Below are positions 1 to 29,979 of a stretch of 42,729 bases of DNA, one piece after another. Numbering within the stretch: the stretch's first letter is position 1; each line of letters begins with the position of its first letter. The notes under the pieces were generated by a model that searched no databases, was not told the DNA's origin, and saw only the letters and a list, made by a program, of their open reading frames with translations. The translations under genes were made by a program, and so were the position numbers. The stretch is from Lachnospiraceae bacterium. Lineage in GTDB: Bacteria > Bacillota > Clostridia > Lachnospirales > Lachnospiraceae. Location of the stretch: NCBI GenBank assembly GCA_021770245.1, contig JAETRI010000027.1, positions 1 to 42,729 of the forward strand. The letters run 5' to 3'.

Positions 1-1445
1 TGAGCGGTAAGAACTGGGCTCGTATTCTTGTGGGTATCGCAGAGCAGGAAATCGAAAGGAAAAATCCAGCGTTGGATTCATTGTATAAGCAGTCTCTGCT
101 GGCTAATAAAAAGGACCGGACGTTTTTCCTGAAAGCTAAGATTGAGGGACTGAATTGTTCGGAACTTTCAAACGGCTATTGGCTGAATGTGAATTACAGT
201 ATACCTCGTTTGATGGAGCAGATCCGGGCGCTGTGTCTGCATTGCGGATATAACAAATCTCAGGTTGTGATTTATGGTGTTCCGAAAGGAAGCAGTTCTG
301 CAAAGTCTGGTAATCCCGCTGCACCAAAGACAGGCGGTAATGGTGTAGCAATTGAAAAGGCAGAGGCCTTCCTTAAAACAGCAGACCTTCAAGGAGCTAA
401 GGTGCAGAAATTGATAGATGCCGTTCAGCCGGGCGCCGCAGTGTACCCGACAAAGAATGCGCTTGATGCCTCGGACAACGTGATTGAAATGCCAAATGGC
501 CGCTATGTTCATGTGGATGCCTTCGTTGATCTTGATGAGGCCGAGGACGACATGAGAGACATACTCCGAACGCATTTTGCGCAGTTTGGCGGCTACAGCA
601 ACAATAAGCTTCTGTACGGCGCAGCTTCGCATGACCTATCGATGTTTCTGAACGACAATGACTGCGAGGATATCGACAGTGTATATGCCTTGGCGCAGTT
701 TTTCTTCAGCAAAAAGAGCGATGGCGAGAAGTTTACATTCTCGTATCCCCATATCTTTGAGCATAAGCCGGACTATCCGCTTACACTGAAAGGACTGATG
801 ATTAACTTCTCCCGGATGAACGACGGTGTGTTGAGCGCGGACGAGGCAAAGGACTACCTTCAGAAAACGATGCTCACTTATGGAAGTCTGAATCAGCTGT
901 TGGCGATATCTTCGTCGGACACGTTCCTGCTTTATGATTCGAACCGTTATCTGCTGACCGAAAAGGTCGGTGTAACTGCGGAATGGAAGCAGACTGTGCA
1001 CGACAAGCTGGACAATCTGTTCCGTCATGCTAATGTGGCGTTTATCATACCGAGGGACATTAACCAAGCATGGATGAATGCACTGCCAGCTTTGCCACAT
1101 GGCTTGGGGTGGACGGCGCTCCTGTTACAGGATGTTATGCGGAAGTTTCCGGATATCGGTTACAGGCCGGTGACATCAGAGCTCGGTCAGGCGATAGATA
1201 CCATTGCAGCTGCAATTGTGCCGACAAACTCCGCTGTCCAGTCGTTCCCGGATGTAGTGACGCTGTTTATGCAGGAAAAGCACAGCCTGCCCAAGCGCAT
1301 GTCTTGCGAGGAGCTTCGTGTTGAGCTGAGAGACGCAGGAATGCTGGAGGGAAATGAATTGATTTATGCTTTACCCAAGGCTCTGGACGACTATCGGTTC
1401 TCTTGGACAGATGAAAATAAAATGGTGCTTGTGAGAGGAAATTAA
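1..1445 (+). CDS. Unrecognised protein, first gene of BREX-4 operon, 5' end at window edge
   Basis: The reading frame is open from the first base to the stop at 1443-1445. The first two bases are TG followed by AGC GGT AAG, so an ATG one base outside the window would give a protein starting MSGKNWAR. A GTG at 30 is in frame but has no ribosome site, so I treat it as internal. About 480 residues are visible. A small-residue- and lysine-rich linker at about 85-115 (SSSAKSGNPAAPK) separates a short N-terminal segment from a larger, mostly helical C-terminal part. I see no P-loop, nuclease, methylase or membrane segment and do not recognise the family. It ends 27 bp before brxP on the same strand, so it is probably co-transcribed and may be an accessory or specificity component. 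It could also be the C-terminal part of a longer protein. Confidence 0.7.
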   Translation, partial: SGKNWARILVGIAEQEIERKNPALDSLYKQSLLANKKDRTFFLKAKIEGLNCSELSNGYWLNVNYSIPRLMEQIRALCLHCGYNKSQVVIYGVPKGSSSAKSGNPAAPKTGGNGVAIEKAEAFLKTADLQGAKVQKLIDAVQPGAAVYPTKNALDASDNVIEMPNGRYVHVDAFVDLDEAEDDMRDILRTHFAQFGGYSNNKLLYGAASHDLSMFLNDNDCEDIDSVYALAQFFFSKKSDGEKFTFSYPHIFEHKPDYPLTLKGLMINFSRMNDGVLSADEAKDYLQKTMLTYGSLNQLLAISSSDTFLLYDSNRYLLTEKVGVTAEWKQTVHDKLDNLFRHANVAFIIPRDINQAWMNALPALPHGLGWTALLLQDVMRKFPDIGYRPVTSELGQAIDTIAAAIVPTNSAVQSFPDVVTLFMQEKHSLPKRMSCEELRVELRDAGMLEGNELIYALPKALDDYRFSWTDENKMVLVRGN

Positions 1446-1472
1446 TAGCACCTGAGATTAGAGGAAACGCCT

Positions 1473-3812
1473 ATGTATGGATATGAGTGGACAGAACGAA
1501 ATGGCATATACCGTTTGTCTCTGGATAGTAAAATTGAAAAGGAAATCCGGCCCGTTTTTAAGGAGGAGCTGGATTACTTCGGTTTCAATGGACACTGGAC
1601 ATATCCTAATACTAAGGCGCCGCTTTTGTGGGCCGAGGGAATCCGTCGCTATATCGTCAACGGAGAATGCGTCGCAGAAGCTGTAGGTGGCGGTTTTTAT
1701 ACCAAGCCTACTATTAAGATAAAGAAAGAAAACCTTGCACTGGCTCCTATCGACATCGAGGACCTCTGGAAGGAAAACGAACGAATCATGCTGGGCTTAG
1801 AAAAGACAGCAATTGATGCGATTCGTAAATATTATGATAAGTATTCGGCAATGGGCATGGAATTTGCCGTTGCATTTAGCGGAGGAAAGGATTCTCTCGT
1901 ATTACTTGACCTTGTCAGCCGTGCGCTTTCACCAGACAAATTTTCTGTTGTTTTTAGCAACACGGGAATGGAGCTTTCTACAACCTATGAATCTGTTGAG
2001 AAGGCAAAAAAATACTGGTCATCTTTAAAGTTTTACGAGGCAAAGAGCCACTTAAACCCTGAGGACAGTTGGGAAGAATTCGGCCCTCCGGGACGCCGGA
2101 TGCGTTGGTGCTGTGCTGTTCATAAGTCGGTGCCCACCATATTGTTGTTCCGAGAGCTTACCGGAAATTACGACGTGAAAGTCGTCGTTTTTGAAGGTGT
2201 GCGTGCGGAAGAAAGTGCGGCAAGAGCAAAGCGAGACGAAATTAGCGTCGGAGCAAAAAACATAAACCAGATAAACTGCAGCCCGATTCTAAAATGGAGT
2301 ACAGCTGAATTGTTTATCTATTTGATGCATTATGACATATTGTTTAACGATGCCTACAGAAAAGGATTGTTCAGAGTTGGATGTATTGTGTGTCCTATGT
2401 CATCAAGCTGGTGGGACGGCATTACAAACGATTTATATCCTGAAGAGATAAAGCCGCTTCTTAACAAGGTCGAAAAGTATGCAAAGGCAACTAAGTCAGA
2501 GTCTGAAATTGTAAGCTTCATTGAGCAAGGAGGCTGGAAAGCCCGTATGGGTGGTAGAGGTTTACCAAACGGAGGAAACCGTGTAATTGAAACTATTAAC
2601 GAAGACAAAATCTCGTTTGGCTTCACTTCACATACTCAGAATTGGCTCGACGTTTCAACGATACTTGGACCTGTCGTTTCGTTTGATGAAGGAGTCTATT
2701 CGCAGATAATAGCGAATCAAGAGTTTCATTTTTCTGTAACAGGCGAGAATAATAACGTCGTAACTTATTGGCCTTATTCTAAAATGGATAGATTTGTTCT
2801 AAGCCATTTGAGGGGTATCGCAAATAAAGTGGCATATTGTTTTGGATGCAAGGCTTGTGAAGTGCAATGTCCGGTTAATGCGTTCACGATTACAGACAAA
2901 GGGTCAATCTATGTGAGAGAAAACAAGTGTGTTCACTGTTATAACTGCATCGAATTCACTAATGGGAAGGGATGCCTCGCAGCCAAATCACTGTCAACTA
3001 CAGGAGGAGAGAACGGTATGGATTTAAAAGGAATGAACAGATATCAGCATTTTGGACTTCGTCGTCCATGGCTTGAGCACTTCTTTGCGATGAAGGAAAA
3101 CTGCTTTACTGCTGGACAGCTCGGCACAAGGCAGTATGATTCCCTTAAAGTGTGGGTTAAAGAAGCCGGTCTTCTGTCCGCATCAGGAAAAGGGACGAAA
3201 GCTGGTGTGCCGACACCTTTATTTGAAAAATTAGAGCATCTTGGGGCAGGCAACCCATTGGTATGGGCTATCATTTGGACCAATCTTGCATATAATTCCA
3301 TTATCTCAAAATGGTATATGCTTAATGTTCCTTCTGGAGATACTTATGAAAAGAACGAGCTGGTGTTCCAGCTTGGTGACGATTATTCAAAATCTACCCG
3401 CGATAATGCGGTGACCGCACTTTTGGAGACATTCCGTCACAGCCCGATAGGTAGTGTCCTGAAACAGGGCATTCCGATTGCCAGCGGCAGTAGTTACAAG
3501 TTCTCGAAACAGGGATGGAACACACCGGACGCAGTTGCTATCCTTTACGCGATATATATGTGGGCCGAAGCAACTGACCGCTATGATTTTACCTTGAGCC
3601 AGCTTGAGACCGCAAGAGGAAACGCTGATGCTAAAGGTGTAGATCCAGTTGCCATCTTTGGTATTAACCCTGAAAAGTTTAAGGATATTCTTCAGGACAT
3701 TGCTCTTCAGTATCCGGATTACATCCGCACTACTTTTGTTGCCGATCTGGATAATGTGAAGCTGTTCCCGCAGTTTAAATCCATCGACATTCTTGATTTG
3801 ATTCAGAGGTAA
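1473..3812 (+). CDS. brxP: BrxP, PAPS/APS-reductase-like Fe-S protein of type 4 BREX
   Basis: A 779-residue protein with several domains. The PP-loop of the PAPS reductase/ATP pyrophosphatase fold is SGGKDS at 136-141. A Cys-Cys pair at 213-214 and CxxC at 304-307 are 89 residues apart, which resembles the CC-x80-CxxC motif that binds [4Fe-4S] in assimilatory APS reductases. A ferredoxin-like segment follows, with Cys 456, 459, 462, 466 and 486, 489, 492, 501. Its second half has an unusual long last spacing (Cx2Cx2Cx8C). The C-terminal part (about 520-700, with LGTRQYDSLKVW) resembles the DUF4007 type seen beside sulfur-modification genes. In the BREX classification a PAPS reductase-domain protein replaces the PglX methylase in type 4. 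The exact reaction is not known from sequence; activation or sulfuration of DNA is inferred from DndC. Confidence 0.88.
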   Translation: MYGYEWTERNGIYRLSLDSKIEKEIRPVFKEELDYFGFNGHWTYPNTKAPLLWAEGIRRYIVNGECVAEAVGGGFYTKPTIKIKKENLALAPIDIEDLWKENERIMLGLEKTAIDAIRKYYDKYSAMGMEFAVAFSGGKDSLVLLDLVSRALSPDKFSVVFSNTGMELSTTYESVEKAKKYWSSLKFYEAKSHLNPEDSWEEFGPPGRRMRWCCAVHKSVPTILLFRELTGNYDVKVVVFEGVRAEESAARAKRDEISVGAKNINQINCSPILKWSTAELFIYLMHYDILFNDAYRKGLFRVGCIVCPMSSSWWDGITNDLYPEEIKPLLNKVEKYAKATKSESEIVSFIEQGGWKARMGGRGLPNGGNRVIETINEDKISFGFTSHTQNWLDVSTILGPVVSFDEGVYSQIIANQEFHFSVTGENNNVVTYWPYSKMDRFVLSHLRGIANKVAYCFGCKACEVQCPVNAFTITDKGSIYVRENKCVHCYNCIEFTNGKGCLAAKSLSTTGGENGMDLKGMNRYQHFGLRRPWLEHFFAMKENCFTAGQLGTRQYDSLKVWVKEAGLLSASGKGTKAGVPTPLFEKLEHLGAGNPLVWAIIWTNLAYNSIISKWYMLNVPSGDTYEKNELVFQLGDDYSKSTRDNAVTALLETFRHSPIGSVLKQGIPIASGSSYKFSKQGWNTPDAVAILYAIYMWAEATDRYDFTLSQLETARGNADAKGVDPVAIFGINPEKFKDILQDIALQYPDYIRTTFVADLDNVKLFPQFKSIDILDLIQR

Positions 3813-3823
3813 GGAGGACTGAC

Positions 3824-6800
3824 ATGCTAAACTACAGCACCTACATAGAATTGAGTCCGAATTACGAATCTGTTGTAGATATCGATTCGGAAAGCAGAAA
3901 TCCTAACTTATGGCAAGAGTACATTGTCCATGAGGATATGAAGGATGCACTGGATAAAATATGCCAGTCATTGTCTTTCGAGGATTTAGACAGGCGCCGT
4001 TCTTTCTGGGTGCACGGCGCTTACGGTACCGGCAAGAGCTATGCTGCAATCGTTTTGAAGCATCTTTTTGAAGATCCTGTGGAAAGCATCCGGCCGTTCC
4101 TTTCAAAACAGCTGCTGATTCCTTATCGCGACAGCTTTATTGCTCAGCGTGAAAAAGGAAAGTATCTTGTTGTCTGGAAAAGTCAGACCACAGATATTAA
4201 GAGTGGCACACAGCTGATGATGGCAGTTGAACTTGCTATCCGTGAAAAGCTAAAAGAGGAGTTTGGCGATAATGCTTATTACGGAAGGAATTCCCTCACA
4301 TCAGCAGCCAAGGACGCAATCAAGAAAGCCTCCATTAACTGGCAGGATATTTTTGATAACTCCTCCCTCGGCCTTTACGATGACTATGAATCACTGGACG
4401 CATTTAAGGCAGAGGTTGAGTCTGGCAATCTGAAAGCCTGCAATTATGTGGCTAAGATTTTCCGCGATAATGGATGGGGTTTCTTCACTGTAATTGAGGA
4501 CTTCAAAAAATGGTTAAAGGATATCATTGAAGGAAATCACCTTCAGGATACCGGCATTATCTTTATCTGGGACGAATTTACTACCTACCTCAGAGATAAC
4601 CCGCATGACGATGTTCTGCAACCTCTCTCCGAATACTGCAAAGAGCAGCCATTCTTCATGTGCCTTATCGTTCATAAGGATTCCAGCTGGCTGAGCAATG
4701 TCGGTGAAGATACTTATAACCGGATTGTGCACCGTTACCACTCTATGGAATTCCATGTCAGCGAAGACGCTGCTTATGAGCTGATTGGCAATTCCATCCT
4801 TACCCGCGCAGGCATGGAAACCCAGTGGGAAGGTGTAAAAGATAAACTTATGAATACAATCAGCAAGAATATGGCTGATTTCGATAATCTGGACCTTTCA
4901 AACAGCCGTGAGCGTTTCCGTCATCTTTGCCCGCTGCATCCGATGACGCTTTCCATGCTGGCAATAGTGGCCCAGAACTTTGGCGCGTCCCAGCGTACTC
5001 TGTTCCGTTTCATGAAGGATCGCAACGAGTCTACACAGAATGTAGGCTTTATTCACTATATCAATCATTTTGGTTATGACCACTGGCGCTGGCTGACCAC
5101 TGACTTTTTGTGGGATTATTTCTTCATGCGCGAGAGCGATGTAAAGAATTTCTCAACAGAAGCCAAGAGCGCATACCAGCATTTCGTAACCAAGAAGGAA
5201 TATATCTCTGATGATTACCACATGCATGTTTTCAAAGCAGCAATGCTTCAGATTGCAGTCATGTCCTCTGGTAACGTCAGCAACCTTTATAGTCAGGCAA
5301 CACAGAGAAAAGTATCCTCTACACGGAGCACTTTGCATAAGTGCTTTGCTGGCGTGCTTACAAAAGACGATGTCAATGGCTATTTGAATGACCTCGTTGA
5401 AATTGGCGTTCTCAGACTGGATGATATGACAAATGGCGATGCCCGTCTGCAGATTCCATATTCCGGAGGTGTAGGAGATGTTTTTGAGTATAGGAAGCAG
5501 CAGATTATGGCAAAGTATACCCGCTACGAGCTGTTCAAGAAAAACGGTGTCTTTGCTAAAGCTATTGAGACAAAGTTAACAGATAAGAATGATGCGGCTT
5601 ATAACAGACTTTATATTGCTGCAGCCAGTTCCGAAACATCCTCGATTAACAATCGCATGGATGAAATCAAGAAGGAGCTGGAAAAGTCTCCGTATCGTTT
5701 TGGCATTTTCGTGATAGCAATCGGCGAGGCCAGCAAGTTCTCCTCTATGCAGGAAAAAGTTAAAACATTAGCAGCTGAAGACACAACCGGGCGCCTTGCA
5801 GTTTGCCTTCTGAAGTCGCCACTTCCTGATGACCATTTGGATAGATGGTATAACGCCAAGACACACTCTGAGCTTGCCAGTGATGAAGGCAAAACCAGTG
5901 ATGCTGACCGTTACACGGAAGAAGCAGCGGTTATCGTATCTGAATGGTCAGAATCTGCCGGTGATGATCAGATTATGGCAGTGTGCGGTACCAGAACTTA
6001 TCCGAATGAATATGGCGCATACAGCCTGATTGCTGACCTTAAAAAGGATGTTATTTTCGGTACAGTATTTACTGCAGCACCGGAGCGTTTTGTAACTACA
6101 TATACTGCGTTCAAGAAAATGCAGGCGCCTACCGCAGAATATGGTGTTAAGAAGGAAGAGCCAAACAATGCGCAGACTATGAGCGTTGTTAACGGTCTGA
6201 AAACAGTTCACGCATGGGATGCTGAAACCTTGACGGAGCTGACACAGTGCAGCGGAAGTGCCGGTGCAGATGCCGTTGCAGCAATTGCCAACTATATCTC
6301 ACAGAAATTTGCTCAGGGTACGCAGATTAAGTTGGACGAGATGTGGTTAGAATTACAGAAGCCTCCGTATGGATATTATAACAATATTGCATGCGGATAC
6401 ACACTTGGCTATATTTTGAGATTCTATGTTAATAGTGAGTTTAGCTGGAATCGCGGAGATAATAACCCTTGGCCGTTTACTGAAAAGAACATCGCAACGA
6501 TGATCAAGGATATGTGCGAGGGTAAAACAGTCAATCACTATCTGTCTCCCGGCTCTGAGGTATGGCAGAAGTTTAAGCCCTATGCTCAGAAAGTGTTCCA
6601 GCTTTTTGATGGTGAGGCAGTAAACGACACAGAAGCAAGGAAGTATATGTCCAAGCAGTGCACTGAGAAAGCCGGTGTACCGTTCTGGGCTTTAAAGTAC
6701 GTCCCTGAAAATAAGTTTGGCGGCGCCTCTGCGAAGGCTATAGCGGATGAAATTGTAACGTTGTTCTGTGACTTTATGACCGAAAACGGCAATCAGGAAT

Positions 6801-8023
6801 CCGTGATGGGAGACATTATTACGAAGTTTACCGGAAACGGAAAGATTCGTAGCACACTCGCTACGCTCTACTTTGATCAGGATACAGTTTACACAGCATT
6901 CGGAGAATTTATTTCTCAGAAATGTCAGGAGCTTCAGGACCTTCGCAGTGAAATTGGCCTGACAAATCGTGATATGTTTGATGCCATTCATCAGCTTATG
7001 CAGGGACAGGTGTCAACATGGACCGAGCAGCAGGTAGAGGAAAAACTGGAGGAGCTCTGCATTGAATACCGCGCTGTTGCGGCTTTGAACAAAGCTCTCG
7101 GCATGAATAGAAAGAGCATCAAGAAGCTCAGCGACGACATAAAGAATGCATTTGATAACATGATCGTTCCCGGCTCTGTAATTGAGGGAATGGATTATGA
7201 TTGGATTCCTACGTTGAAGGCGCTTCATGCGATTTCAACAACACAGTGGTTCAAGATTGAGGTTGAAGAACGCAATGCTTATACACAACTCATTGATGAG
7301 AATGCCAACAAGGTATGGGGTAATGTTACATCCGGGAAAGCGCTCCTGAAGAAATATATGGAAGACCACGGAAACAATTGTACCGAAGATGAATTGCGTG
7401 ACATCTTCGCTGCGCTTGTTCCGTCTAAGTACGATTCTTCTGTGACAGACTTCGACGACAAGATTACATCTCAGCTGAACAAGATTGCCTATAATCGGAA
7501 CAAGACGCGTATTAATGAGCTCTGGCTTCAACAGTCCGGTTTTGCTACTGTTGCAGAATGGTGTAATAACTTTGCCGTTCCTATTCAGTGGGTTGTTCCG
7601 GACGAGGTGCAGAATCACATAGCCGTTCTGCATACAATTCAGAACGGAAACTCCGTAAATAACATATCTCTTCAGAATGCCACACAGTATTTTGAAGGTC
7701 ACACTGTAACTGTGTTGAAAGATAAGCAGAAAATCAAGGACAGTTTCCTTACGAATGTGGGCGAAAGCTATAGAGCAGCTTTCGGTGCTTCCGCTTCTGT
7801 ACTTGTGCCACGTCTGAAAACCAATAAACAGCTCACCTCAAATGTTTATAGCTGGGCGAACAAAGTAGGCAAGATTCGCGAGGTAATTGACGAGTTCCTG
7901 CGGACAAAATTTTGCGAAGACGCTAAGAAGAAAGTTAGAACGATGAAGGAGGATGTGCTCCGCGATAAGGTTATTGCCTTACTGGAACAGAATCCGGATC
8001 TTTATACGCTGTTCATCAACTAA
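3824..8023 (+). CDS. brxC: BrxC/PglY-type large P-loop ATPase of BREX
   Basis: A 1399-residue ATPase, within the 1200-1400 residues usual for BrxC/PglY. Walker A is GAYGTGKS at 65-72, and a Walker B-like IIFIWDEF lies near 243-250 with acidic DE residues. The protein has no membrane segments. It starts at ATG 3824 behind GGAGG, 11 bp after brxP, and ends 14 bp before pglZ. BrxC/PglY is one of the two proteins found in all BREX types and is thought to be an ATP-driven core component of the modification or interference complex; its precise mechanism is not established. The assignment rests on length, P-loop position and immediate linkage to pglZ. I cannot tell BrxC from PglY by eye, and type 4 loci use the BrxC name. 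Confidence 0.88.
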   Translation: MLNYSTYIELSPNYESVVDIDSESRNPNLWQEYIVHEDMKDALDKICQSLSFEDLDRRRSFWVHGAYGTGKSYAAIVLKHLFEDPVESIRPFLSKQLLIPYRDSFIAQREKGKYLVVWKSQTTDIKSGTQLMMAVELAIREKLKEEFGDNAYYGRNSLTSAAKDAIKKASINWQDIFDNSSLGLYDDYESLDAFKAEVESGNLKACNYVAKIFRDNGWGFFTVIEDFKKWLKDIIEGNHLQDTGIIFIWDEFTTYLRDNPHDDVLQPLSEYCKEQPFFMCLIVHKDSSWLSNVGEDTYNRIVHRYHSMEFHVSEDAAYELIGNSILTRAGMETQWEGVKDKLMNTISKNMADFDNLDLSNSRERFRHLCPLHPMTLSMLAIVAQNFGASQRTLFRFMKDRNESTQNVGFIHYINHFGYDHWRWLTTDFLWDYFFMRESDVKNFSTEAKSAYQHFVTKKEYISDDYHMHVFKAAMLQIAVMSSGNVSNLYSQATQRKVSSTRSTLHKCFAGVLTKDDVNGYLNDLVEIGVLRLDDMTNGDARLQIPYSGGVGDVFEYRKQQIMAKYTRYELFKKNGVFAKAIETKLTDKNDAAYNRLYIAAASSETSSINNRMDEIKKELEKSPYRFGIFVIAIGEASKFSSMQEKVKTLAAEDTTGRLAVCLLKSPLPDDHLDRWYNAKTHSELASDEGKTSDADRYTEEAAVIVSEWSESAGDDQIMAVCGTRTYPNEYGAYSLIADLKKDVIFGTVFTAAPERFVTTYTAFKKMQAPTAEYGVKKEEPNNAQTMSVVNGLKTVHAWDAETLTELTQCSGSAGADAVAAIANYISQKFAQGTQIKLDEMWLELQKPPYGYYNNIACGYTLGYILRFYVNSEFSWNRGDNNPWPFTEKNIATMIKDMCEGKTVNHYLSPGSEVWQKFKPYAQKVFQLFDGEAVNDTEARKYMSKQCTEKAGVPFWALKYVPENKFGGASAKAIADEIVTLFCDFMTENGNQESVMGDIITKFTGNGKIRSTLATLYFDQDTVYTAFGEFISQKCQELQDLRSEIGLTNRDMFDAIHQLMQGQVSTWTEQQVEEKLEELCIEYRAVAALNKALGMNRKSIKKLSDDIKNAFDNMIVPGSVIEGMDYDWIPTLKALHAISTTQWFKIEVEERNAYTQLIDENANKVWGNVTSGKALLKKYMEDHGNNCTEDELRDIFAALVPSKYDSSVTDFDDKITSQLNKIAYNRNKTRINELWLQQSGFATVAEWCNNFAVPIQWVVPDEVQNHIAVLHTIQNGNSVNNISLQNATQYFEGHTVTVLKDKQKIKDSFLTNVGESYRAAFGASASVLVPRLKTNKQLTSNVYSWANKVGKIREVIDEFLRTKFCEDAKKKVRTMKEDVLRDKVIALLEQNPDLYTLFIN

Positions 8024-8037
8024 GAGGAGGTTTAATC

Positions 8038-10458
8038 GTGACGATTGCTGAAATTATAAATAAACTTCGGCAAGAGCGTGATTTTGGGTCTCGTTTTCCT
8101 GCAAGGATTATATTTGTAGATGATCTTAATTCATACTCAGACTTAGTATCACAATTAAAGAGCGCGTGCGATGTCCCGATTAATCTTGCCGATTTTGGTA
8201 AAAACGATGTCGTTCCGCAATTCGAAAAAATGAGAACTGCGCTTGAACAATACGAGGGCAAGCAGGTGCTGCTTCTTTCGGTTGGCGAATATCTTCGCAT
8301 GTGCATTAAGCGTGAGTTGAACAAAGAACGTGCACAGTTTCCGGCTTTCTGGGAATGCATGCAGCCGGAGTCTTCTAAGACCAGATATATTATGCCAGTG
8401 TTCAGATGCAGGGATAGTTTTGACAGAATCATCGGAAAGGTTGATGAGCGTCAGGAGGGCTTCATTTGGGAGTTGGATAATTCGCCATCTGGCGGTCGAT
8501 CAATGTCTCTTGATAGCAACAGTGCGTCAAATCATTATGAATTGCACGATCCGGGAGTACCTTACAGAACGGCAAAACATTATACCATTTCGGTCTATTC
8601 TCCTCAGTTTGCACAGGCCATAAATGCTGATGCAGACAATTTTGAATCTTGGCTCAGAGATTGGGATATTATCTTGAGTCGGGATGTACCATGTACAGTA
8701 ATAACCAATCAATATAGGAACACTGAGGCCTCGTATGGCACCATCAGTTTGAAGCCGATTGACAGTCCTTTTGCGTACCTGTCTGATTTATTGACGGATG
8801 CTGAATCGTTGAACAAAGGGTGGGAATCGGATGATTTCTGGGCTCAGCTTATACCTTTTGCAAAGCGCGATATGAAATTCGCGGACCTTGTCTTGGATCA
8901 GCTTGGCATTACTTTTTTTGATTTTGTTTCGGTTATTGCAAGGTGGAAAACGCTGAACAACCTTCAGAGGAAATTGATCTGGATGTGGTACAGAGTGTAT
9001 CCTACAGATGAGTACTACTCTTATGCCTGCACAAAGGCGACGAAAGCAACTCAAATCCCTGAAAAAATCCGGGATGAGATACTGCTGCTTTCCACAAGAA
9101 GTGACAGCTGGATTGACCAGCGTATGGCAGCCATGCAGGTTCTTTCATTTAATTCGTTTGACGATGCGTATTTTAAAGCGCTTGACAAGCTGCAGCTGGC
9201 AGATATGAAGCTGCGTTTGTTGACTTATAGGACGCATGAAGAGTTCACCTATGCAGTAAAAACCGTCAGCGCGATGCTTCGTGACGGAGTGGAGCCGGAG
9301 GCTGTTGCCGAGTTGTTAAAAGACACATATCCGAGCCTTTATACATATCTTTCTGCGACATCCGGTATTGATGCTGAAGTGGACGAATATCTGTCGTGGT
9401 ACAGAAAGAATAAGATTATTAATAGGTTTCCGGGCCAATATCCAAAGCATCTGACATTTGACCGTTTTGATGCTCGTCTGAAGCAGCTTAATAAAATGAA
9501 TGGAAAAGACTGCTTTATTCTGTGGATTGATGGATTCGGTATGGAATGGCTTCCTGTATTTTTGAAAGAACTGGAACTTCGTAATATCCGGCCGGAAAGC
9601 AAGAATATTGCAACAGCCAAGCTGCCGACAGAAACAGAATACAATCATCAGTGGAATGAAGATGACCCGATGTCAGATAAATGGGGCCGTCTGGATTCAC
9701 TGTCACATCACGGTATGCCCGATGACAAAAGCTATTTCTCCTGTGTTGTTTATCAGCTCGCAGTTTTTTCTAAAGTAGCCAAAAAAGTCGACGAGCTTTT
9801 GGATGAGCATGAGTATGTAGCCATAACGGGAGACCATGGCAGCAGCCGTTTAGCGGCGTTGGCATTCCACGATACCGGTGTGGTACCCACAATCGCGCCT
9901 CAGCATTCTAAAGTGCGCAGTTTCGGTCGCTTTTGTGAATTGTCTGATGCTGACAGCGCTTATCCGATTCTGGACTTCATGCAGAAGGCCACTCTCGACG
10001 GAAAAAACTATGTGGTTATGAAGGACTACAATCAGTTTTCTGTAAGCGGAAACGCCGCTGGTGGTAATACCGATGATGAAGATGTAGTTGGCGAAATCCA
10101 TGGTGGCAACACACCTGAAGAACGGCTTGTCCCGGTTGTTATTGTCAAAAGATCTCAGCCTTTGCCGCCTATGAGTTGCAAATCCAAGAATAAATTTGTA
10201 ACTCGTAGAAATGGCCACGTTGACGCAAATCTTATCTTCAACAGAAACGTATTCTCATTGGAAATTTCTGCAGAATGTGGAGAAGGAGTTTGCAGCAAGA
10301 ATCCAGATGGTACATGGGATATCGCTTTCGATGGTGTGACAGGTGACAGTCTTAGTGTAGCTGTTATAGCTAACGGAAATCTCATAGCGGATAAAGTCCT
10401 TCTGAAGGTAAAGGGACAAGGTATCGACCGGAACGGGGGAATGGGAGGATTACCATGA
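8038..10458 (+). CDS. pglZ: PglZ, alkaline-phosphatase-fold BREX protein
   Basis: An 806-residue PglZ. The alkaline-phosphatase-superfamily metal site is visible in two places: FILWIDGFGMEW near 490-501, where Asp-Gly begins the metal-binding strand, and ITGDHGSSR near 595-603, the Asp-His pair. The N-terminal 450 residues are an uncharacterised helical region. The start is GTG at 8038, preceded by GAGGAGG, 14 bp after brxC. The gene ends in an ATGA overlap with the next small gene, which points to translational coupling. PglZ is the hallmark of all BREX systems. Its phosphatase-like fold suggests a phosphoryl or nucleic-acid phosphodiester chemistry, but no substrate can be read from the sequence. 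Confidence 0.9.
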   Translation: MTIAEIINKLRQERDFGSRFPARIIFVDDLNSYSDLVSQLKSACDVPINLADFGKNDVVPQFEKMRTALEQYEGKQVLLLSVGEYLRMCIKRELNKERAQFPAFWECMQPESSKTRYIMPVFRCRDSFDRIIGKVDERQEGFIWELDNSPSGGRSMSLDSNSASNHYELHDPGVPYRTAKHYTISVYSPQFAQAINADADNFESWLRDWDIILSRDVPCTVITNQYRNTEASYGTISLKPIDSPFAYLSDLLTDAESLNKGWESDDFWAQLIPFAKRDMKFADLVLDQLGITFFDFVSVIARWKTLNNLQRKLIWMWYRVYPTDEYYSYACTKATKATQIPEKIRDEILLLSTRSDSWIDQRMAAMQVLSFNSFDDAYFKALDKLQLADMKLRLLTYRTHEEFTYAVKTVSAMLRDGVEPEAVAELLKDTYPSLYTYLSATSGIDAEVDEYLSWYRKNKIINRFPGQYPKHLTFDRFDARLKQLNKMNGKDCFILWIDGFGMEWLPVFLKELELRNIRPESKNIATAKLPTETEYNHQWNEDDPMSDKWGRLDSLSHHGMPDDKSYFSCVVYQLAVFSKVAKKVDELLDEHEYVAITGDHGSSRLAALAFHDTGVVPTIAPQHSKVRSFGRFCELSDADSAYPILDFMQKATLDGKNYVVMKDYNQFSVSGNAAGGNTDDEDVVGEIHGGNTPEERLVPVVIVKRSQPLPPMSCKSKNKFVTRRNGHVDANLIFNRNVFSLEISAECGEGVCSKNPDGTWDIAFDGVTGDSLSVAVIANGNLIADKVLLKVKGQGIDRNGGMGGLP

Positions 10459-10658
10459 GCCGTAAAGCCAAGACCTGCTGCGAATGTGAGAAAAAACTGA
10501 AAAAGGATGAAGTCGCTCTGTGCCAAAAACTGCTTGGTACGGACACAGAAGATTTTTATTGTATAGATTGCCTGAGTGAATATTTAGGATGCTCTACCGA
10601 GGATCTCGAAATAAAAATTCAGGAATTCAAAGAACAGGGATGTACACTTTTCCTGTAA
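10455..10658 (+). CDS. Small zinc-ribbon-like protein between pglZ and brxL
   Basis: A 67-residue acidic and lysine-rich protein whose ATG overlaps the TGA of pglZ (ATGA). It has two Cys pairs, CCEC near 8-11 and CIDC near 36-39, with a further Cys at 45 and one near the C-terminus. This is compatible with a single Zn ribbon, with a helix after it (STEDLEIKIQEFKEQ). The tight coupling and the conserved-looking Cys pattern argue for a real gene rather than a chance frame. I do not recognise the family. Small zinc ribbons often act as protein-protein or nucleic-acid adaptors, so an adaptor role in the BREX complex is plausible but unproven. The brxL ribosome site begins just after its stop. Confidence 0.72.
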   Translation: MSRKAKTCCECEKKLKKDEVALCQKLLGTDTEDFYCIDCLSEYLGCSTEDLEIKIQEFKEQGCTLFL

Positions 10659-10675
10659 ACGAAGGAGGCACAGTA

Positions 10676-12115
10676 ATGTTAGAGGATAAAATTCGCGATG
10701 TATTTGCGGATATGGTTGTTCTTAAAAATCCAGAAAGGGCTGAGTTCTTTAAAAACTTGAGCCTGCCTTCATACATGCGAGACTGGCTCGTCATGAAGTT
10801 TTCAGACGATAACGGAGATATTGATTATGATAGCGTTCTTCGTTACATCAGACAGTATATTCCGAGTCGAGAAGATTACGAGCAATTTAAGTTTGAAATG
10901 GTTAACGGAGAAACCGTCAGATTCCTTGCGAGAGTACGTGTTGCTGTTGATATAAAAACCGGAAAGACAATGTTTGAACTTCCTGACTTTGGAGGTGGCA
11001 AAGCCGGAGCTTCTGGTGAAGTCGCAAATGAAGTCGTTAGTAGATGGAAAGATACTCTTCTTAAGGAAAGTGAAAACTGGGGTATTGTTGAGCTGATATG
11101 GGGTAAATCGAGCAAGGGCAAAGGCATCGTCAAACTAATTGAGTATAACCCGTTCTGCCCGTACACAGTAGACCTTGATTACTATAAGGATGCCAGAAAT
11201 TCCTTTACAACAGAGGAATGGATAGACCTTCTTGTTGCAGCAGCTGACTACAATCCAGATGGGTATGAATCTGAGGCGCAAAAGCTGTGCTTCCTTCGCA
11301 GGCTCCTACCATTTGTCGAGAAACGAGTAAACATGATGGAACTGGCACCAAAGGGCACCGGCAAGAGCTATGTTTATCAGAAAATCAGTAAGCACGGATG
11401 GCTGATTTCCGGAGGCACTGTTTCAAGAGCTTCGCTTGTTTATGATAACGCGAAAAAGACTGGCGGTCTTATTACTCGATTCGATTTTGTGGGCTTTGAT
11501 GAAATTCAGTCTATGTCATTTGTTCAGCCGAGCCAGATTCAAACGGCCCTGAAGGACTATATGGAATTTGGTGAGATACAGGGCTTTGATGCTTCTATTG
11601 TTGCGGATGCTGGTATTATCGTCCTTGGCAACATTGATGCAAGTCGCTTTGATGTTAATGAGAATATGATGGAGGAAGTGAGCCCTGTGTTCCGTGAATC
11701 TGCTTCTCTTGACAGATTCCACGGATTTATTCCAGGATGGGAACTCCCGCGTATGCATCAAGGGCTTGTTGCTAATGGCTGGGCACTAAATACCGAGTAT
11801 TTTGCAGAAGTGCTCCATCTGCTTAGGGATGATTTATCATATTCGACTATTGTTGATGAGTGTTTGCTATTGCCTCCAAAACCGGATCAGAGAGATTTAA
11901 CAGCAATTAAGCGCCTTTGCACGGCATTTATGAAACTGATATTCCCGAATGCGACATGCAAGGAAGATATTCCAGCGGAAGACTTTATTAAATATTGCCT
12001 GAATCCTGCAAAAGAGATGCGTGCTGTTATAAAGAAACAGCTTTGCATTATTGATCCGAAGGAATTTAACGTGCCGGGCAAAAAAGACATCCCGGACATT
12101 CAATATAAGTATTAA
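10676..12115 (+). CDS. brxL: BrxL, short AAA+ form of type 4 BREX
   Basis: A 479-residue BrxL-type AAA+ protein. Walker A is APKGTGKS at 224-231, and a Walker B-like FVGFDEIQS lies near 270. The N-terminal 200 residues are the usual BrxL DNA-binding-like region. I chose ATG 10676 because GAAGGAGG sits 8-12 bp upstream; an in-frame GTG/ATG extension to 10589 would run back through the preceding gene. Long BrxL proteins of type 1 systems are about 680 residues and carry a Lon-like C-terminal domain. This one stops about 200 residues earlier, so it belongs to the short family without a recognisable protease domain. BrxL is an ATP-driven DNA-engaging complex in characterised BREX systems. Here it is the penultimate gene of the operon, 23 bp before the desulfurase. 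Confidence 0.87.
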   Translation: MLEDKIRDVFADMVVLKNPERAEFFKNLSLPSYMRDWLVMKFSDDNGDIDYDSVLRYIRQYIPSREDYEQFKFEMVNGETVRFLARVRVAVDIKTGKTMFELPDFGGGKAGASGEVANEVVSRWKDTLLKESENWGIVELIWGKSSKGKGIVKLIEYNPFCPYTVDLDYYKDARNSFTTEEWIDLLVAAADYNPDGYESEAQKLCFLRRLLPFVEKRVNMMELAPKGTGKSYVYQKISKHGWLISGGTVSRASLVYDNAKKTGGLITRFDFVGFDEIQSMSFVQPSQIQTALKDYMEFGEIQGFDASIVADAGIIVLGNIDASRFDVNENMMEEVSPVFRESASLDRFHGFIPGWELPRMHQGLVANGWALNTEYFAEVLHLLRDDLSYSTIVDECLLLPPKPDQRDLTAIKRLCTAFMKLIFPNATCKEDIPAEDFIKYCLNPAKEMRAVIKKQLCIIDPKEFNVPGKKDIPDIQYKY

Positions 12116-12138
12116 TTCTCAGATTAGGAGAACTTGTA

Positions 12139-13263
12139 ATGGGTGCTCATATCTATGCCGATAATGCGGCAACAACAAAACTGGATACTGTTGCGTTTGA
12201 AACAATGACACCTTGGCTTCTCGAAGAATACGGCAATGCCTCCCAGCTCTACGCTTTTGCACGAAAGCCCAAGAAAGCTCTTGTAGAGGCAAGGGCAACA
12301 ATCGCGGAATGCATCGGTGCGTTGCCGGATGAGATTTATTTCACCTCCGGTGGCACCGAGAGTGATAACTGGGTCATCAAAAGTTCTGCCTTTTCTGACC
12401 CTGATAAGCGGGCAATGGTAACGACTGCTTTTGAGCATCACGCCGTGCTGCATTCCTGCGCGGCAATTGAGCGGCTGGGATACCCGGTTGTCTATATGTG
12501 GCCAACTGCTGAGGGATACATCACGCCTGATATTTTAGAGAGTTACATTACTGATAGCACCCGGCTGATCTCTGTGATGTTTGCTAATAACGAGATAGGA
12601 AGCATTCAACCTATCCGGGAACTTAGCGAGACTGCTCATGCACACGGTGCACTCTTTCACACAGATGCAGTACAGGCTGTTGGGCATGTCAAAATTAACG
12701 CCCACGAGCTTGGTATAGATTTTCTTTCTGCCTCCGCACACAAGTTTAACGGGCCGAAAGGTATCGGTTTCCTCTATATCCGCAAGGGCGTAGATTTGAA
12801 GCCCTACGCGGATGGAGGCGCACAGGAAAGTGCACATCGTGCCGGGACGGAAAACATAGCTTCTATTGTGGGAATGGCTGCAGCCTTAAAAGGAAATTGT
12901 GATACGTTGGAGACCAGCCAAAAACACCTTGTGAATCTAGAGAAACTTCTGCTGGCAAGGCTGGATGATGCTGCCATTGCTTATAAACATAATGGCGGGA
13001 AGTACAGACTTCCGGGACTATTGAGCCTTTCATTTCCGGGGAAAGATGGGGAAGCCATTCTTCATCGCATGGACTTGATGGGGATATGTATCTCGACAGG
13101 CTCTGCGTGCAATAGCAAGGATACAGAGATATCACACGTTCTCAAGGCTATTAAACTCGACGAAAAATATGCGATGGGAACGATACGAATCTCTCTTGGA
13201 AAATATAACACAGAGGATGATGTGGAGCGGATCGTTCAAGGGCTCAAGAAGATATTGCTGTGA
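12139..13263 (+). CDS. Cysteine desulfurase (NifS/IscS/DndA type)
   Basis: A 374-residue class V aminotransferase-fold cysteine desulfurase. It takes sulfur from cysteine as an enzyme persulfide and releases alanine. PLP-binding Lys202 lies in SAHKFNGPKG, the ring-stacking His is in FEHHAV near 100, and Asp176/Gln179 are in HTDAVQ. The persulfide Cys324 lies in STGSACNSK. Length and motifs are complete. The gene follows brxL by 23 bp with its own AGGAG site. No iscU or other Fe-S assembly gene is adjacent, so the sulfur is more likely meant for BrxP, either to build its three predicted Fe-S clusters or as substrate sulfur, as DndA serves DndC. A housekeeping paralogue elsewhere in the genome is likely but cannot be seen. 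Confidence 0.92.
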   Translation: MGAHIYADNAATTKLDTVAFETMTPWLLEEYGNASQLYAFARKPKKALVEARATIAECIGALPDEIYFTSGGTESDNWVIKSSAFSDPDKRAMVTTAFEHHAVLHSCAAIERLGYPVVYMWPTAEGYITPDILESYITDSTRLISVMFANNEIGSIQPIRELSETAHAHGALFHTDAVQAVGHVKINAHELGIDFLSASAHKFNGPKGIGFLYIRKGVDLKPYADGGAQESAHRAGTENIASIVGMAAALKGNCDTLETSQKHLVNLEKLLLARLDDAAIAYKHNGGKYRLPGLLSLSFPGKDGEAILHRMDLMGICISTGSACNSKDTEISHVLKAIKLDEKYAMGTIRISLGKYNTEDDVERIVQGLKKILL

Positions 13264-13389: not shown

Positions 13390-14505
13390 ATGAATCAGGA
13401 TCCCTTTAAGGAATATATCAAGGAGACCGAGCCTGGTAAGCGGGACAAGGGATACGCATGGCATACAGCCATTGGCCTGCAGGCGGTTGACGGGCTTAAG
13501 ACATCAGAATACTTGGTGCACACCGCTGTCCGCAATATTGAGGGTGAGATTTCCTTTGAGGAGGCAAATGCGCTTTTGCAGAGCTATTATGAGGAAAATC
13601 CTGCCCGTGACTCGGATGATCGAACCGAGGAGGCGGATAAAGTTTCTGCCAGAATTGCTATGCTTCTTTCGGAAAAAGCATTTAGCTTTACTCCGAATGA
13701 GTACCTTTCCATCCACCGGAAGCTGTTCACCGGTATCTATTCCCATGCCGGACACATCCGGGATTATAACATTACTAAAAAGGAATGGGTGCTCGACGGT
13801 GCTACGGTGCTTTACGGTAGCGCCACAGAATTGAGGGCAACGCTGGATTATGATTTTTCTGAAGAAAAAAAATTCTCCTATAAGAATCTTTCTATGGATG
13901 ACATTGTCCATCACCTTGCTGTGTTCATATCCAGACTGTGGCAAATTCACGTCTTTGGTGAAGGCAACACCAGAACGACAGCAGTGTTCTTTATCAAGTA
14001 CCTGCGCACCCTCGGTTTTGATGTAACAAACGATATTTTCGCAGAAAATGCGTGGTACTTTCGCAATTCCCTTGTCAGGGCAAACTATAGCGACTTAAAA
14101 AACGGCATCCATGAGACCACAGAGTTTCTGGAACTGTTCTTGAGAAACTTTCTGCTGAATGAGAATCATCCGCTTCATAACCGGACATTGCATATCAGTG
14201 GAACGTTCAATATTCCAGAAGAAGTGAACATTAAGGATCAAAAAGCGAACATTGAAAGTGAAAAAGTGAACATTCAAAATTCATTTACCGCTAAAACGGC
14301 TTCTCATGTTTGTAAATTGTTGGAGAAATTTGGATTTCAGACGATCTTTGGCAGGTCGGATGTTCAGGGAGTTCTCGACCTGAAACCGACCAGAAGTACG
14401 GCACTGCTCAATGAGATGGCGGCGAAAGGGTTTGTCGAACCGGTCACCGGACACGGAAAAGGAAAGTACAGATTCAAACTGCCATCCGCCAAGTCGAGAC
14501 AATGA
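13390..14505 (+). CDS. Fic-domain protein with C-terminal winged helix
   Basis: A 371-residue Fic protein. The core motif is HVFGEGNTR at 187-195, which keeps catalytic His187, the acidic residue, Asn193 and Arg195. Fic enzymes usually transfer AMP from ATP to protein hydroxyls. A candidate class II inhibitory segment near 45-53 reads VRNIEGE, retaining Glu-Gly but lacking the usual Ser/Thr four residues before. A three-unit heptad, VNIKDQK / ANIESEK / VNIQ, at 280-297 links the Fic core to a C-terminal winged-helix-like region (300-371, KPTRSTALLNEM). This suggests DNA binding or autoregulation. The gene starts at ATG behind GAGGAGG, 126 bp after the desulfurase, so it may be read through from the BREX operon or be independent. 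The target is unknown. Confidence 0.88.
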   Translation: MNQDPFKEYIKETEPGKRDKGYAWHTAIGLQAVDGLKTSEYLVHTAVRNIEGEISFEEANALLQSYYEENPARDSDDRTEEADKVSARIAMLLSEKAFSFTPNEYLSIHRKLFTGIYSHAGHIRDYNITKKEWVLDGATVLYGSATELRATLDYDFSEEKKFSYKNLSMDDIVHHLAVFISRLWQIHVFGEGNTRTTAVFFIKYLRTLGFDVTNDIFAENAWYFRNSLVRANYSDLKNGIHETTEFLELFLRNFLLNENHPLHNRTLHISGTFNIPEEVNIKDQKANIESEKVNIQNSFTAKTASHVCKLLEKFGFQTIFGRSDVQGVLDLKPTRSTALLNEMAAKGFVEPVTGHGKGKYRFKLPSAKSRQ

Positions 14506-19123: not shown

Positions 19124-19903
19124 ATGAACCAGCAGGAACGAAGAATCTATTTAATTCAGGAGCTTTTATGTGAAAACAGGGCGTATGGCGAAAGGAAGAT
19201 TCCCGAGACGCCCGGGGAGCAAAAGCGGCTTTTGCGCGGGCTGATGAACATCCGTATGCCGGGACCTGCAGGGGAAGAATTTTTAAAAATACAGGATGAG
19301 TATCTGCGGGAAGAAATAAGACGGAAAGGAGTCACGGAAATAGACAGCCTGGTTCCGGTTCAGGATGGGATCTATCTCTGGCAGGGAGATATTACCACGC
19401 TGCGGTGCGATGCCGTTGTCAACGCTGCCAACAGCCAGATGCTGGGCTGTTTCTGCCCTAATCATGGCTGTATTGACAATGCAATCCATACTTTTTCCGG
19501 CATACAGCTTCGGGCGGCCTGCGCGGAGCTGATGGAGGAACAGGGACACGAAGAAAAGACCGGGGAAGCCAAAATCACTCCGGCATTTAATCTGCCCTGT
19601 AAATATGTGCTTCACACCGTCGGGCCGATTGTCAGGGGGAAACTTACGGGAAATGATAAAGGGCTGCTGGCCTCATGCTATCGTTCCTGTCTGGAGCTTT
19701 CGGAAGAAAAGCATATAAAAAGTATTGCCTTCTGCTGTATTTCAACGGGAGAATTTCATTTTCCCAATGATAAGGCGGCAGAAATTGCGGTCAGGACAGT
19801 GAAAGAATATCGGAGACAGACCGGGAGCAAAATGGAAGTGATATTTAATGTCTTCAAGGATCTGGACAGGGAAATCTACGAAAAACTGCTCATGGCAGAT
19901 TGA
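19124..19903 (+). CDS. Zinc-type macrodomain protein-ADP-ribose hydrolase
   Basis: A 259-residue protein. The N-terminal 75 residues form a helical extension. The macrodomain core starts near 85 with LWQGDITTLRCDAVVNAANS and continues with LGCFCPNHGCIDNAIH, where the Cys/His cluster is the signature of the zinc-containing macrodomains (SauMacro type). The later loop CCISTGEFHFP binds the distal ribose or phosphate in this family. Such enzymes remove ADP-ribose from protein side chains. In Staphylococcus and Streptococcus they sit with SirTM and a lipoyl carrier; none of those genes is here. It starts at ATG behind AGGTGGGAAAGG. Loss of partners or a stand-alone function are both possible. Confidence 0.9.
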   Translation: MNQQERRIYLIQELLCENRAYGERKIPETPGEQKRLLRGLMNIRMPGPAGEEFLKIQDEYLREEIRRKGVTEIDSLVPVQDGIYLWQGDITTLRCDAVVNAANSQMLGCFCPNHGCIDNAIHTFSGIQLRAACAELMEEQGHEEKTGEAKITPAFNLPCKYVLHTVGPIVRGKLTGNDKGLLASCYRSCLELSEEKHIKSIAFCCISTGEFHFPNDKAAEIAVRTVKEYRRQTGSKMEVIFNVFKDLDREIYEKLLMAD

Positions 19904-27655: not shown

Positions 27656-28270
27656 ATGACCGAACAGGTCAAAACGAAGCAACGCGTGGCCGACCACGGC
27701 GAGGTATTCACGGCGAAGCGGGAGGTGGAAGCCATGTGCGCCCTGGTGGAGGACGAATGCCTGCGCATCGATTCCCGGTTCCTGGAACCGGCGTGCGGGG
27801 ACGGGAATTTCTTATGGGAAATCCTGAGCCGGAAGCTGGATGTGGTGGCCAAGAGATATAGAAAGGTTCCCTATGATTATGAAAGAAACGCCCTGCTCGC
27901 GTTGGGAAGCCTTTACGGTGTGGAGCTCTTAGCGGACAATGTCATCGCCTGCCGGGAGCGGCTGTACGGACTCTGGAACCGGAAATATGAAAGGGCAGTG
28001 GCGAAAAGAGAGCAAAACGACGAGGTAAGGGAATCCGCCGGATATATCCTGGAGCATAATATCATCTGCGGGAATGCGCTGAGCTTATGTTGTGTGGACG
28101 ATGAGGGCAGGGATACGGACAGGCCGATCGTTTTCAGCCAATGGGCTTTCGCCACCGGACCGATGATGAAGAGGGAGGATTATACCTTCGCGCAGCTTTT
28201 GGAGGGAGAAGGAACCCTGATTAAGGCTTACCCGCCGATTCACTACAGGAGGTTAAAGGAATATGGATGA
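27656..28270 (+). CDS. N-6 DNA methylase-like subunit lacking motif IV
   Basis: A 204-residue protein. The N-terminal VADHGEVFTAKREV resembles motif X of adenine methylases, and motif I is FLEPACGDGNF at 42-52, which binds S-adenosylmethionine. The later ILEHNIICGNALS resembles the strand before motif IV, but no NPPY/DPPY follows; IVFSQWAFATGPMMKRED stands in its place. The gene overlaps the complete methylase downstream by 8 bp, so the two are translationally coupled. It probably acts as a partner or regulatory subunit, or is specialised. Small N-6 methylases of this type are known beside larger NPPY-bearing ones. The start at ATG 27656 follows AAGGAGAG. Confidence 0.82.
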   Translation: MTEQVKTKQRVADHGEVFTAKREVEAMCALVEDECLRIDSRFLEPACGDGNFLWEILSRKLDVVAKRYRKVPYDYERNALLALGSLYGVELLADNVIACRERLYGLWNRKYERAVAKREQNDEVRESAGYILEHNIICGNALSLCCVDDEGRDTDRPIVFSQWAFATGPMMKREDYTFAQLLEGEGTLIKAYPPIHYRRLKEYG

Positions 28271-29849: not shown

Positions 29850-29979
29850 AAATTAAAATTTTCAATCTCCCTGAATGGAGGGCGTGCTAAAGCACGCAGA
29901 CGGGAGCAAGATTGAAAATTAAAATTTTCAATCTCCCTGAATGGAAGGCGTGCCTTGCACGCGGACGGGAGCAAGATTG
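29826..29979 (+). repeat. Tandem 66-bp repeats with nested palindromes
   Basis: Two full units of about 66 bp and a truncated third begin at 29826, 29892 and 29957 with GCACGC. Each unit has a GC-rich stem (GCGTGC/GCACGC), then AGACGGGAGC, then a 24-nt perfect palindrome (29844-29867 and 29910-29933). CTCCC and GGGAG can pair across the GC stem. The first unit covers the end of the methylase gene. The last ends in GGGAGCAAGATTG, which gives the next gene its ribosome site and TTG start. Confidence 0.82.

Follow-up and report, generated by a model that had tools for sequence, protein, structure and literature searches.

The stretch of DNA analyzed here, referred to below as the window, is one entire contig read from base 1 (JAETRI010000027.1; 42,729 nucleotides) in the 4.28-Mb draft genome of a Lachnospiraceae bacterium. 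At positions 3–13263 its plus strand carries seven co-directional genes: an unnamed first gene, brxP, brxC, pglZ, a zinc-ribbon gene, brxL, and a cysteine desulfurase gene. This operon is a type 4 bacteriophage exclusion (BREX) system. The best overall explanation, to which a probability of roughly 0.7 is assigned, is that the system marks host DNA with sulfur and that the first gene is its seventh part. As a sulfur-marking BREX the operon is ordinary, since this reading is already in print and is not new as a claim; its interest lies in the first gene, a modular part that appears to have been overlooked.

Organization of the Operon

The operon comprises the following genes and modules.

3–1445, plus strand: first gene (5' incomplete), encoding an unnamed modular protein of DNA-binding type; no family match, homologues precede brxP elsewhere
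3–290, plus strand: NGYW module, N-terminal in the first gene and 5' incomplete (module hidden Markov model [HMM], E 6e-35)
351–1436, plus strand: core A, C-terminal in the first gene, about five predicted winged helices in tandem (AlphaFold2 model)
1473–3812, plus strand: brxP, PAPS-reductase-like PP-loop enzyme with a ferredoxin-like Cys-rich segment and an SspB/DUF4007-like C-terminus (PADLOC, Pfam)
3824–8023, plus strand: brxC, large P-loop ATPase (PADLOC BrxC E 3.4e-71, SspC E 1.9e-22; Walker A motif GAYGTGKS)
8038–10458, plus strand: pglZ, type-4 form, probable phosphodiesterase/nuclease effector (NCBIfam BREX_PglZ_4; PADLOC PglZ E 1.2e-34)
10455–10658, plus strand: zinc-ribbon protein of 67 amino acids, CxxC...CxxC (recognized by recurrence; no family match at default cut-offs in Pfam, NCBIfam, or PADLOC)
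10676–12115, plus strand: brxL (probable start), AAA+ ATPase, short form (TIGR02688; Pfam BrxL_ATPase and BrxL_N)
12139–13263, plus strand: cysteine desulfurase, NifS/DndA-like (PADLOC DndA E 6.2e-125, SspA E 4.4e-124; motifs)

The original prediction, made from the sequence of the window, described a single run of genes with small gaps and one overlap, and both this layout and the gene names were confirmed. The gaps do not exceed 27 bp (first gene/brxP, 27 bp; brxP/brxC, 11 bp; brxC/pglZ, 14 bp; brxL/desulfurase, 23 bp), and pglZ and the zinc-ribbon gene overlap by 4 bp. The brxL frame is open from 10589, and its start is probably at 10676, because the PADLOC BrxL match begins there, at residue 31 of the open reading frame (ORF). 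With this start, brxL lies 17 bp past the zinc-ribbon stop codon and its apparent overlap with that gene disappears. The 5' end of the first gene is truncated by the end of the contig.

Assignment to Type 4 BREX

Type 4 BREX with BrxP in place of PglX, as had been proposed, is borne out by each of the core proteins. BrxP matches its PADLOC family strongly (E 3.6e-235), along with Pfam PAPS_reduct (E 2.5e-27) and Fer4_7 (E 2.3e-6), both above the Pfam cut-offs, and contains the motifs SGGKDS, RWCC, and GCxxCP. With NF033445 (BREX_PglZ_4), PglZ scores 243 bits against a cut-off of 140, which identifies the type-4 form, and BrxL scores 415 bits with TIGR02688 against a cut-off of 329. BrxC is recognized by its PADLOC match and Walker A motif; it has no Pfam match and scores 28.6 bits, under a cut-off of 400, with the NCBIfam BrxC model, which is presumably meant mainly for other BREX types. 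The C-terminus of BrxP corresponds to SspB/DUF4007, a separate gene in Ssp loci: the SspB/DUF4007 gene of the Ssp locus L066 matches the BrxP profile at 524–654 (E 4e-5), and the DUF4007 match in the window BrxP itself is weak (E 0.035). A type 4 BREX with a desulfurase and a small zinc-finger protein has been described (PMC12839542, cited throughout, like PMC11931770, from excerpts).

The claim that PglX and other methylases are absent holds for the operon, whose genes have no methylase match in PADLOC, Pfam, or NCBIfam. Outside the operon, the window has a split Eco57I-type methylase pair (204 and 528 amino acids) at 27656–29849, ~14 kb downstream. In the genome the PglX model gives two partial matches, in ORFs of 1014 and 530 amino acids, which are read as other methylases because the same model also matches in 9 of 14 control genomes. 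Beside the split methylase is an 862-residue helicase-like protein with T5orf172 (together 27656–32529), with type IIG-like matches.

Recurrence of the Operon and of the First Gene

Loci and genomes are designated by L- and G-numbers, which are labels of this analysis. Searches with BrxP yielded 34 loci, consisting of 11 from named records, 16 from a phylum sample (398 genomes), and seven of the eight from a class sample (391 genomes), the eighth (L078) being left out because it has no upstream sequence. Among the matches listed, the phylum places are 15 at E < 1e-200, to which G421 contributes two, and a split one in G532; at least 18 weaker matches are also listed (E ~1e-100 to 1e-74), three of which (L066–L068) were taken in and the other 15 left out. 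The window and L065, which was found through its first gene, stand outside the count of 34 and inside the desulfurase counts given below.

As far as each contig reaches, the operon set recurs in 10 of the 11 named-record loci, with protein identities of 24–89%, and is therefore not a chance assembly; the 11th, L018, has just a 239-residue brxP match. A homologue of the first gene lies upstream of brxP in the same proportion of these loci (L008–L017, not L018). Over all BrxP-found loci, a core or module HMM match is present upstream of brxP and on its strand in 24 of 34. The class sample took no part in building the HMMs, and there the first gene was found in six of seven loci, five times by core B and once (L080) by NGYW alone, with no recognized core; in L083 only the end of core B is present. 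A module is present in 34 of 4,385 ORFs scanned, all on the brxP strand; 31 of the 34 are either a first gene or a small gene lying between the first gene and brxP. This count is partly circular, since most of those genes built the models.

Searches independent of brxP gave few further members. The first gene was found in one of 250 family genomes besides that of the window (G050), where it adjoins a BREX operon. The core-A profile recovered the window and two weak matches (L069 and L070) from the 398 phylum genomes, and the core region had no match in plasmids. In IMG/VR, 210 stretches fit the core-A pattern and one, L071, is a relative; its first-gene letters are identical to those of L007 from G050. 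On the L071 contig, genes read as prophage tail and lysin-like genes lie within a few kb of the type 4 BREX.

Pfam, NCBIfam, and PADLOC searches assigned the first gene to no family at E ≤ 0.001. The gene was not found described in the literature on type 4 BREX, BrxP, and phosphorothioate, a search that did not cover the primary modification report and its supplements, and its absence from print is not established. The first gene is likely to be a functional part of the BREX system. The suggestion that it and the zinc-ribbon gene are extra parts of the machine gains support from the conservation of both, the zinc-ribbon gene having members in 23 sources, window included; a zinc-finger gene is already in print (PMC12839542). 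The position of the zinc-ribbon gene varies: it lies between pglZ and brxL in the clade of the window, after brxL in most other loci, and between brxP and brxC in L057. In several loci (L049, L050, L054, L059, and L080) no match to it was seen.

Modular Architecture of the First Gene

In other loci, too, the gene before brxP often encodes a large protein. All-versus-all comparison of 25 proteins at this position revealed shared, shuffled modules, namely four N-terminal ones (SAM-like, HARE, FRN, and NGYW) and three C-terminal cores (A, B, and C); the names are labels of this analysis, except HARE-HTH. Cores A and B are weakly alike (L015 against L053, E 5e-6; core-B model on the window core, E 2e-5, and on L016, E 3e-9). 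The NGYW module of the window was found by an HMM built without the window's row. In a Pfam scan of nine first-gene relatives, the sole match at E ≤ 0.001 was HARE-HTH in L012 (E 7e-5), which at 23.6 bits is under the Pfam cut-off of 25.9, and three relatives (L008, L060, and L082) had no PADLOC match. HARE-HTH is known from restriction fusions.

The N-terminal modules differ among near relatives. The core is preceded by NGYW in the window and by FRN in its closest relative L008 (BrxP 84% identical), L012 and L065 combine a SAM-like module with HARE, and the module order in L010 differs from that in L009 and L011. A search of 119 other family genomes (120 with that of the window) recovered NGYW outside BREX at E ≤ 1e-5 in three, always in a GmrSD-type protein, and in all three it sits between GmrSD_C and DUF4268. 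GmrSD is a type IV restriction family (PMC12839542). FRN occurs outside these loci in 1 of 120 family genomes, in a 237-residue ORF without a Pfam match. Neither an L011 SAM-region query nor the FRN profile recovered the missing 5' portion of the first gene from its own genome, a result that shows little.

An AlphaFold2 model of the window first gene, built from 11 rows, has a mean predicted local distance difference test (pLDDT) score of 84.8; from residue 121 onward most blocks score 84–96, with dips to 72 at 391–400 and 69 at 451–460. In the DSSP string of this model, core A reads as about five winged helices in tandem. Foldseek searches against the PDB gave nothing at E ≤ 0.001, and the top lists mix several multi-winged-helix proteins (such as VPS25, SelB, and Dcc1) with unrelated ones, which at most agrees with the predicted winged-helix domains. 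The full-length relative L011 gave a weaker model (pLDDT 74.4), likewise without a Foldseek match at E ≤ 0.001. Two other identities considered for the first gene were rejected: an SspB homologue, as no SspB/DUF4007 family match was found in Pfam, NCBIfam, or PADLOC, and a nuclease, as family searches found no nuclease domain.

A small gene with HNH-like Cys-His pairs, recognized by reading, separates the first gene from brxP in 4 of the 24 first-gene loci.

L013, 9256–9987: small HNH-like gene
L016, 9267–9980: small HNH-like gene
L017, 9299–9967: small HNH-like gene
L051, 4663–5376: small HNH-like gene

FRN weakly matches this gene in L013 (E 7e-4) and L051 (E 5e-4); Pfam gives a weak HNH match in L017 (E 0.016, under the cut-off) and none in the other three. 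No such small gene was seen at loci whose first gene has FRN of its own. In L018, a 90-residue, remnant-like ORF with an HNH-like look precedes the brxP fragment.

Descent of the First Gene

On the BrxP tree, a quick tree made without bootstrap that includes partial rows and omits L018 and L064 as too short, loci with core A form one clade (SH-aLRT 100), as do those with cores A, B, and C together (99). The core labels require seven changes on this tree, the minimum, compared with 22.1 for shuffled labels. Pairwise identity of core A correlates with that of PglZ (0.99), BrxC (0.95), and BrxP (0.93) over 10 loci, from which 45 pairs, not independent of one another, were formed. Unlike the core types, the N-terminal modules do not follow the BrxP tree. 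Nonsynonymous divergence (dN) is 0.12–0.18 for core A, 0.08–0.10 for BrxP, 0.13–0.21 for PglZ, and 0.18–0.32 for the desulfurase; the ratio to synonymous divergence (dN/dS) was not usable, as 15 of the 16 comparisons had reached saturation at synonymous sites. A core inherited with the system and a front end that is swapped are what would be expected of a part that meets phage or modified DNA.

The Probable Sulfur Mark and the Cysteine Desulfurase

Judged from gene content, host DNA very probably carries a phosphorothioate-type sulfur self mark made via this operon. That the desulfurase feeds BrxP toward such a mark, the central claim of the original prediction, is supported both by the fit of the genes and by the published reading of type 4 BREX, in which BrxP makes a phosphorothioate mark and the desulfurase is the sulfur source (PMC12839542; PMC11931770). 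The brxPCZL set has been grouped with dnd and ssp as phosphorothioate-making families (PMC11931770, citing Yuan et al.).

The desulfurase of the window was aligned to a solved cysteine desulfurase and keeps the pyridoxal phosphate-lysine motif SAHKFNGPKG and the cysteine loop STGSACNS, the lysine and cysteine of which we take to be catalytic. Its scores fall under the NCBIfam equivalog cut-offs both for DndA (312.9 versus 480 bits) and for NifS (433.5 versus 530.75 bits); with these motifs present, it may still work as a DndA-type enzyme.

In a survey of the kind that had been suggested, a desulfurase gene accompanies brxP in 16 of 26 loci with a readable 3' side, which speaks against a lack of enrichment and compares with 255 of 457 type-4 taxa in a published survey (PMC12839542). 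That side is unreadable in L013, L014, L018, L051, L052, L062–L064, L078, L081, and L086. All 10 readable loci with core A, which is the BrxP clade of the window, have the gene, as do six of the nine with core B; it is lacking from the single core-C locus and from all six others. The resulting association with cores A and B (16/19 versus 0/7 elsewhere) is confounded by descent, because an independent-pairs test finds just two independent pairs and has no power. The mixture of loci with and without the gene permits a test of whether the enzyme is needed.

Pairwise distances of the desulfurase correlate with those of the other operon genes at r 0.62–0.77, compared with 0.84–0.99 among the rest (10 loci, 45 non-independent pairs). 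In the desulfurase tree, which is otherwise poorly resolved (10 of 18 inner branches open), the enzymes of L012 and L065 (BrxP clade A) and L055 (clade B) form a clade of their own (100/99). Because its correlations are the lowest and this clade crosses BrxP clades, the desulfurase looks like an exchangeable helper. Its co-inheritance with the operon is the loosest of all the parts, and it may therefore assist the system without being indispensable.

Proposed Mechanism

In the proposed mechanism, the desulfurase would take sulfur from cysteine and pass it to BrxP directly, by building the iron-sulfur clusters of BrxP, or both. BrxP, with BrxC and its own SspB-like C-terminal DNA-binding domain, would then introduce phosphorothioate into host DNA as the self mark, and PglZ and BrxL would act on unmarked phage DNA. 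The first gene would supply the seventh part, a rod of about five winged helices that descends with the BREX core and bears exchangeable N-terminal readers; this part would direct the complex to the DNA to be inspected. Phosphorothioate formation by brxPCZL is taken here from published work; the genes, their order, motifs, and recurrence, and the looser co-inheritance of the desulfurase compared with the other genes, were observed in this analysis. The first gene offers a single-gene deletion test of how a phosphorothioate-type BREX picks its DNA.

Alternative Explanations

Several observations weigh against the combined reading of a sulfur-marking system with the first gene as its seventh part. 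The desulfurase is missing from 10 of the 26 readable loci and tracks the other operon genes least. The first gene is missing from 7 of the 34 BrxP-found loci (L018, L049, L050, L052, L057, L059, and L081; in L050 the position holds a 120-residue ORF with a sigma region 4 match), and so some type 4 BREX systems do without it. First genes diverge widely in sequence, since the core-A profile failed to recover the remaining BREX loci of the phylum sample; cores B and C were searched only at the loci gathered here. Core B alone needs two changes on the BrxP tree, and the clustering of core types partly reflects common descent of the whole operon. To these are added the lack of a PDB fold match at E ≤ 0.001 for the first-gene models and a sigma-70-type gene at the first-gene position in three further loci (L056, L062, and L064), which favors a regulator.

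The absent desulfurases also bear on an alternative in which the enzyme only builds the iron-sulfur clusters of BrxP and is not the source of DNA sulfur, house-keeping desulfurases being able to replace it. The ferredoxin-type cysteines of BrxP are invariant in seven aligned rows, the genome has two more full-length desulfurase-like matches and one partial, and the separate clade of L012, L065, and L055 serves across BrxP clades; house-keeping homologues are considered likely substitutes (PMC12839542). This restricted role is nonetheless unlikely: the gene is present in every readable locus of the window's BrxP clade, and one enzyme may do both jobs. It is very improbable that BrxP modifies a base or tRNA instead of the DNA backbone, the mark then not being phosphorothioate. 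PP-loop enzymes as a class have many substrates, and BrxP scores 21.9 bits with the NCBIfam DndC model, under a cut-off of 290; against this, the two halves of BrxP have separate counterparts in Ssp loci, the PAPS-reductase-like gene and the SspB gene, and brxPCZL is among the phosphorothioate-making families (PMC11931770).

For the first gene, the role of a swappable DNA reader, though falling just short of an even chance, is favored because the N-terminal modules are shuffled and NGYW is common to GmrSD-type enzymes. Alternatively, the protein could be the transcription regulator of the operon, with winged helices on the operon promoter and N-terminal modules that sense infection and switch BREX on. 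This role is somewhat less likely but a close rival. Besides the three sigma-70-type genes, the L056 member of which exceeds the Pfam cut-offs for sigma regions 1.1, 2, 3, and 4, it is favored by L053, in which sigma region 4 is fused to core B, by two large proteins with sigma-like helix-turn-helix stretches (by reading) that the core-A profile weakly matches (E 7e-6 and 6e-5), and by the first operon position, which is usual for autoregulators. The shuffled modules, one of them common to GmrSD-type enzymes, suggest DNA reading instead; covariation of the core with PglZ and BrxC is as tight as that between PglZ and BrxC themselves, and the window first gene has no sigma match at E ≤ 5, in region 2 or region 4. 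A role as neither reader nor regulator is improbable. It is tentatively proposed that an undescribed first component is present in most type 4 BREX loci of the phylum, consisting of a winged-helix backbone and exchangeable reader modules from a pool shared with modification-dependent restriction, and that it would act as a specificity or infection-sensing subunit of phosphorothioate-based BREX.

Some further observations concern the sigma-like genes. Two of the type 4 BREX loci led by a sigma-70-type gene, L062 and L064, are decayed, and a relative of the sigma-70-type first gene lies after brxL in L049. In L070, a 1327-residue frame with a sigma-like helix-turn-helix (by reading) and a core-A-like match (E 6e-5) directly precedes a phospholipase-D-like/helicase protein; proteins of this kind may form a wider family of defense-linked proteins.

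Relationship to Known Systems

Published type 4 BREX, as presented in the excerpts of PMC12839542, has in common with the window all core genes, the SspB/DUF4007-like part on BrxP, the desulfurase, and the zinc-ribbon gene. The clade of the window differs in placing the zinc-ribbon gene between pglZ and brxL, and the window in having a conserved modular first gene, of which these excerpts make no mention. Ssp systems (SspABCD) are similar in that a desulfurase, a PAPS-reductase-like protein, DUF4007/SspB, and an SspC-like ATPase are adjacent in L066–L068. In those loci, however, SspB is a separate gene and pglZ, brxL, and zinc-ribbon matches are absent, as are first-gene matches (0 of 3), whereas the window has the fused form of BrxP together with PglZ and BrxL. 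Dnd systems share the DndA-like desulfurase and a DndC-like PP-loop enzyme with the window, but BrxP does not reach the DndC equivalog cut-off (21.9 versus 290.4 bits) and the operon genes have no DndB, DndD, or DndE match. GmrSD-type restriction enzymes (GmrSD_N/GmrSD_C, DUF4268) share the NGYW module with the first gene, which differs in having no match to the GmrSD nuclease domain.

Neighboring Genes

A Fic-domain protein is encoded at 13390–14505, 126 bp past the desulfurase gene, and matches the PADLOC candidate PDC-S72 (E 3.4e-195); this neighbor was not found in 31 other loci examined. Farther downstream of the operon, at 19124–19903, the window encodes a macro-domain protein.

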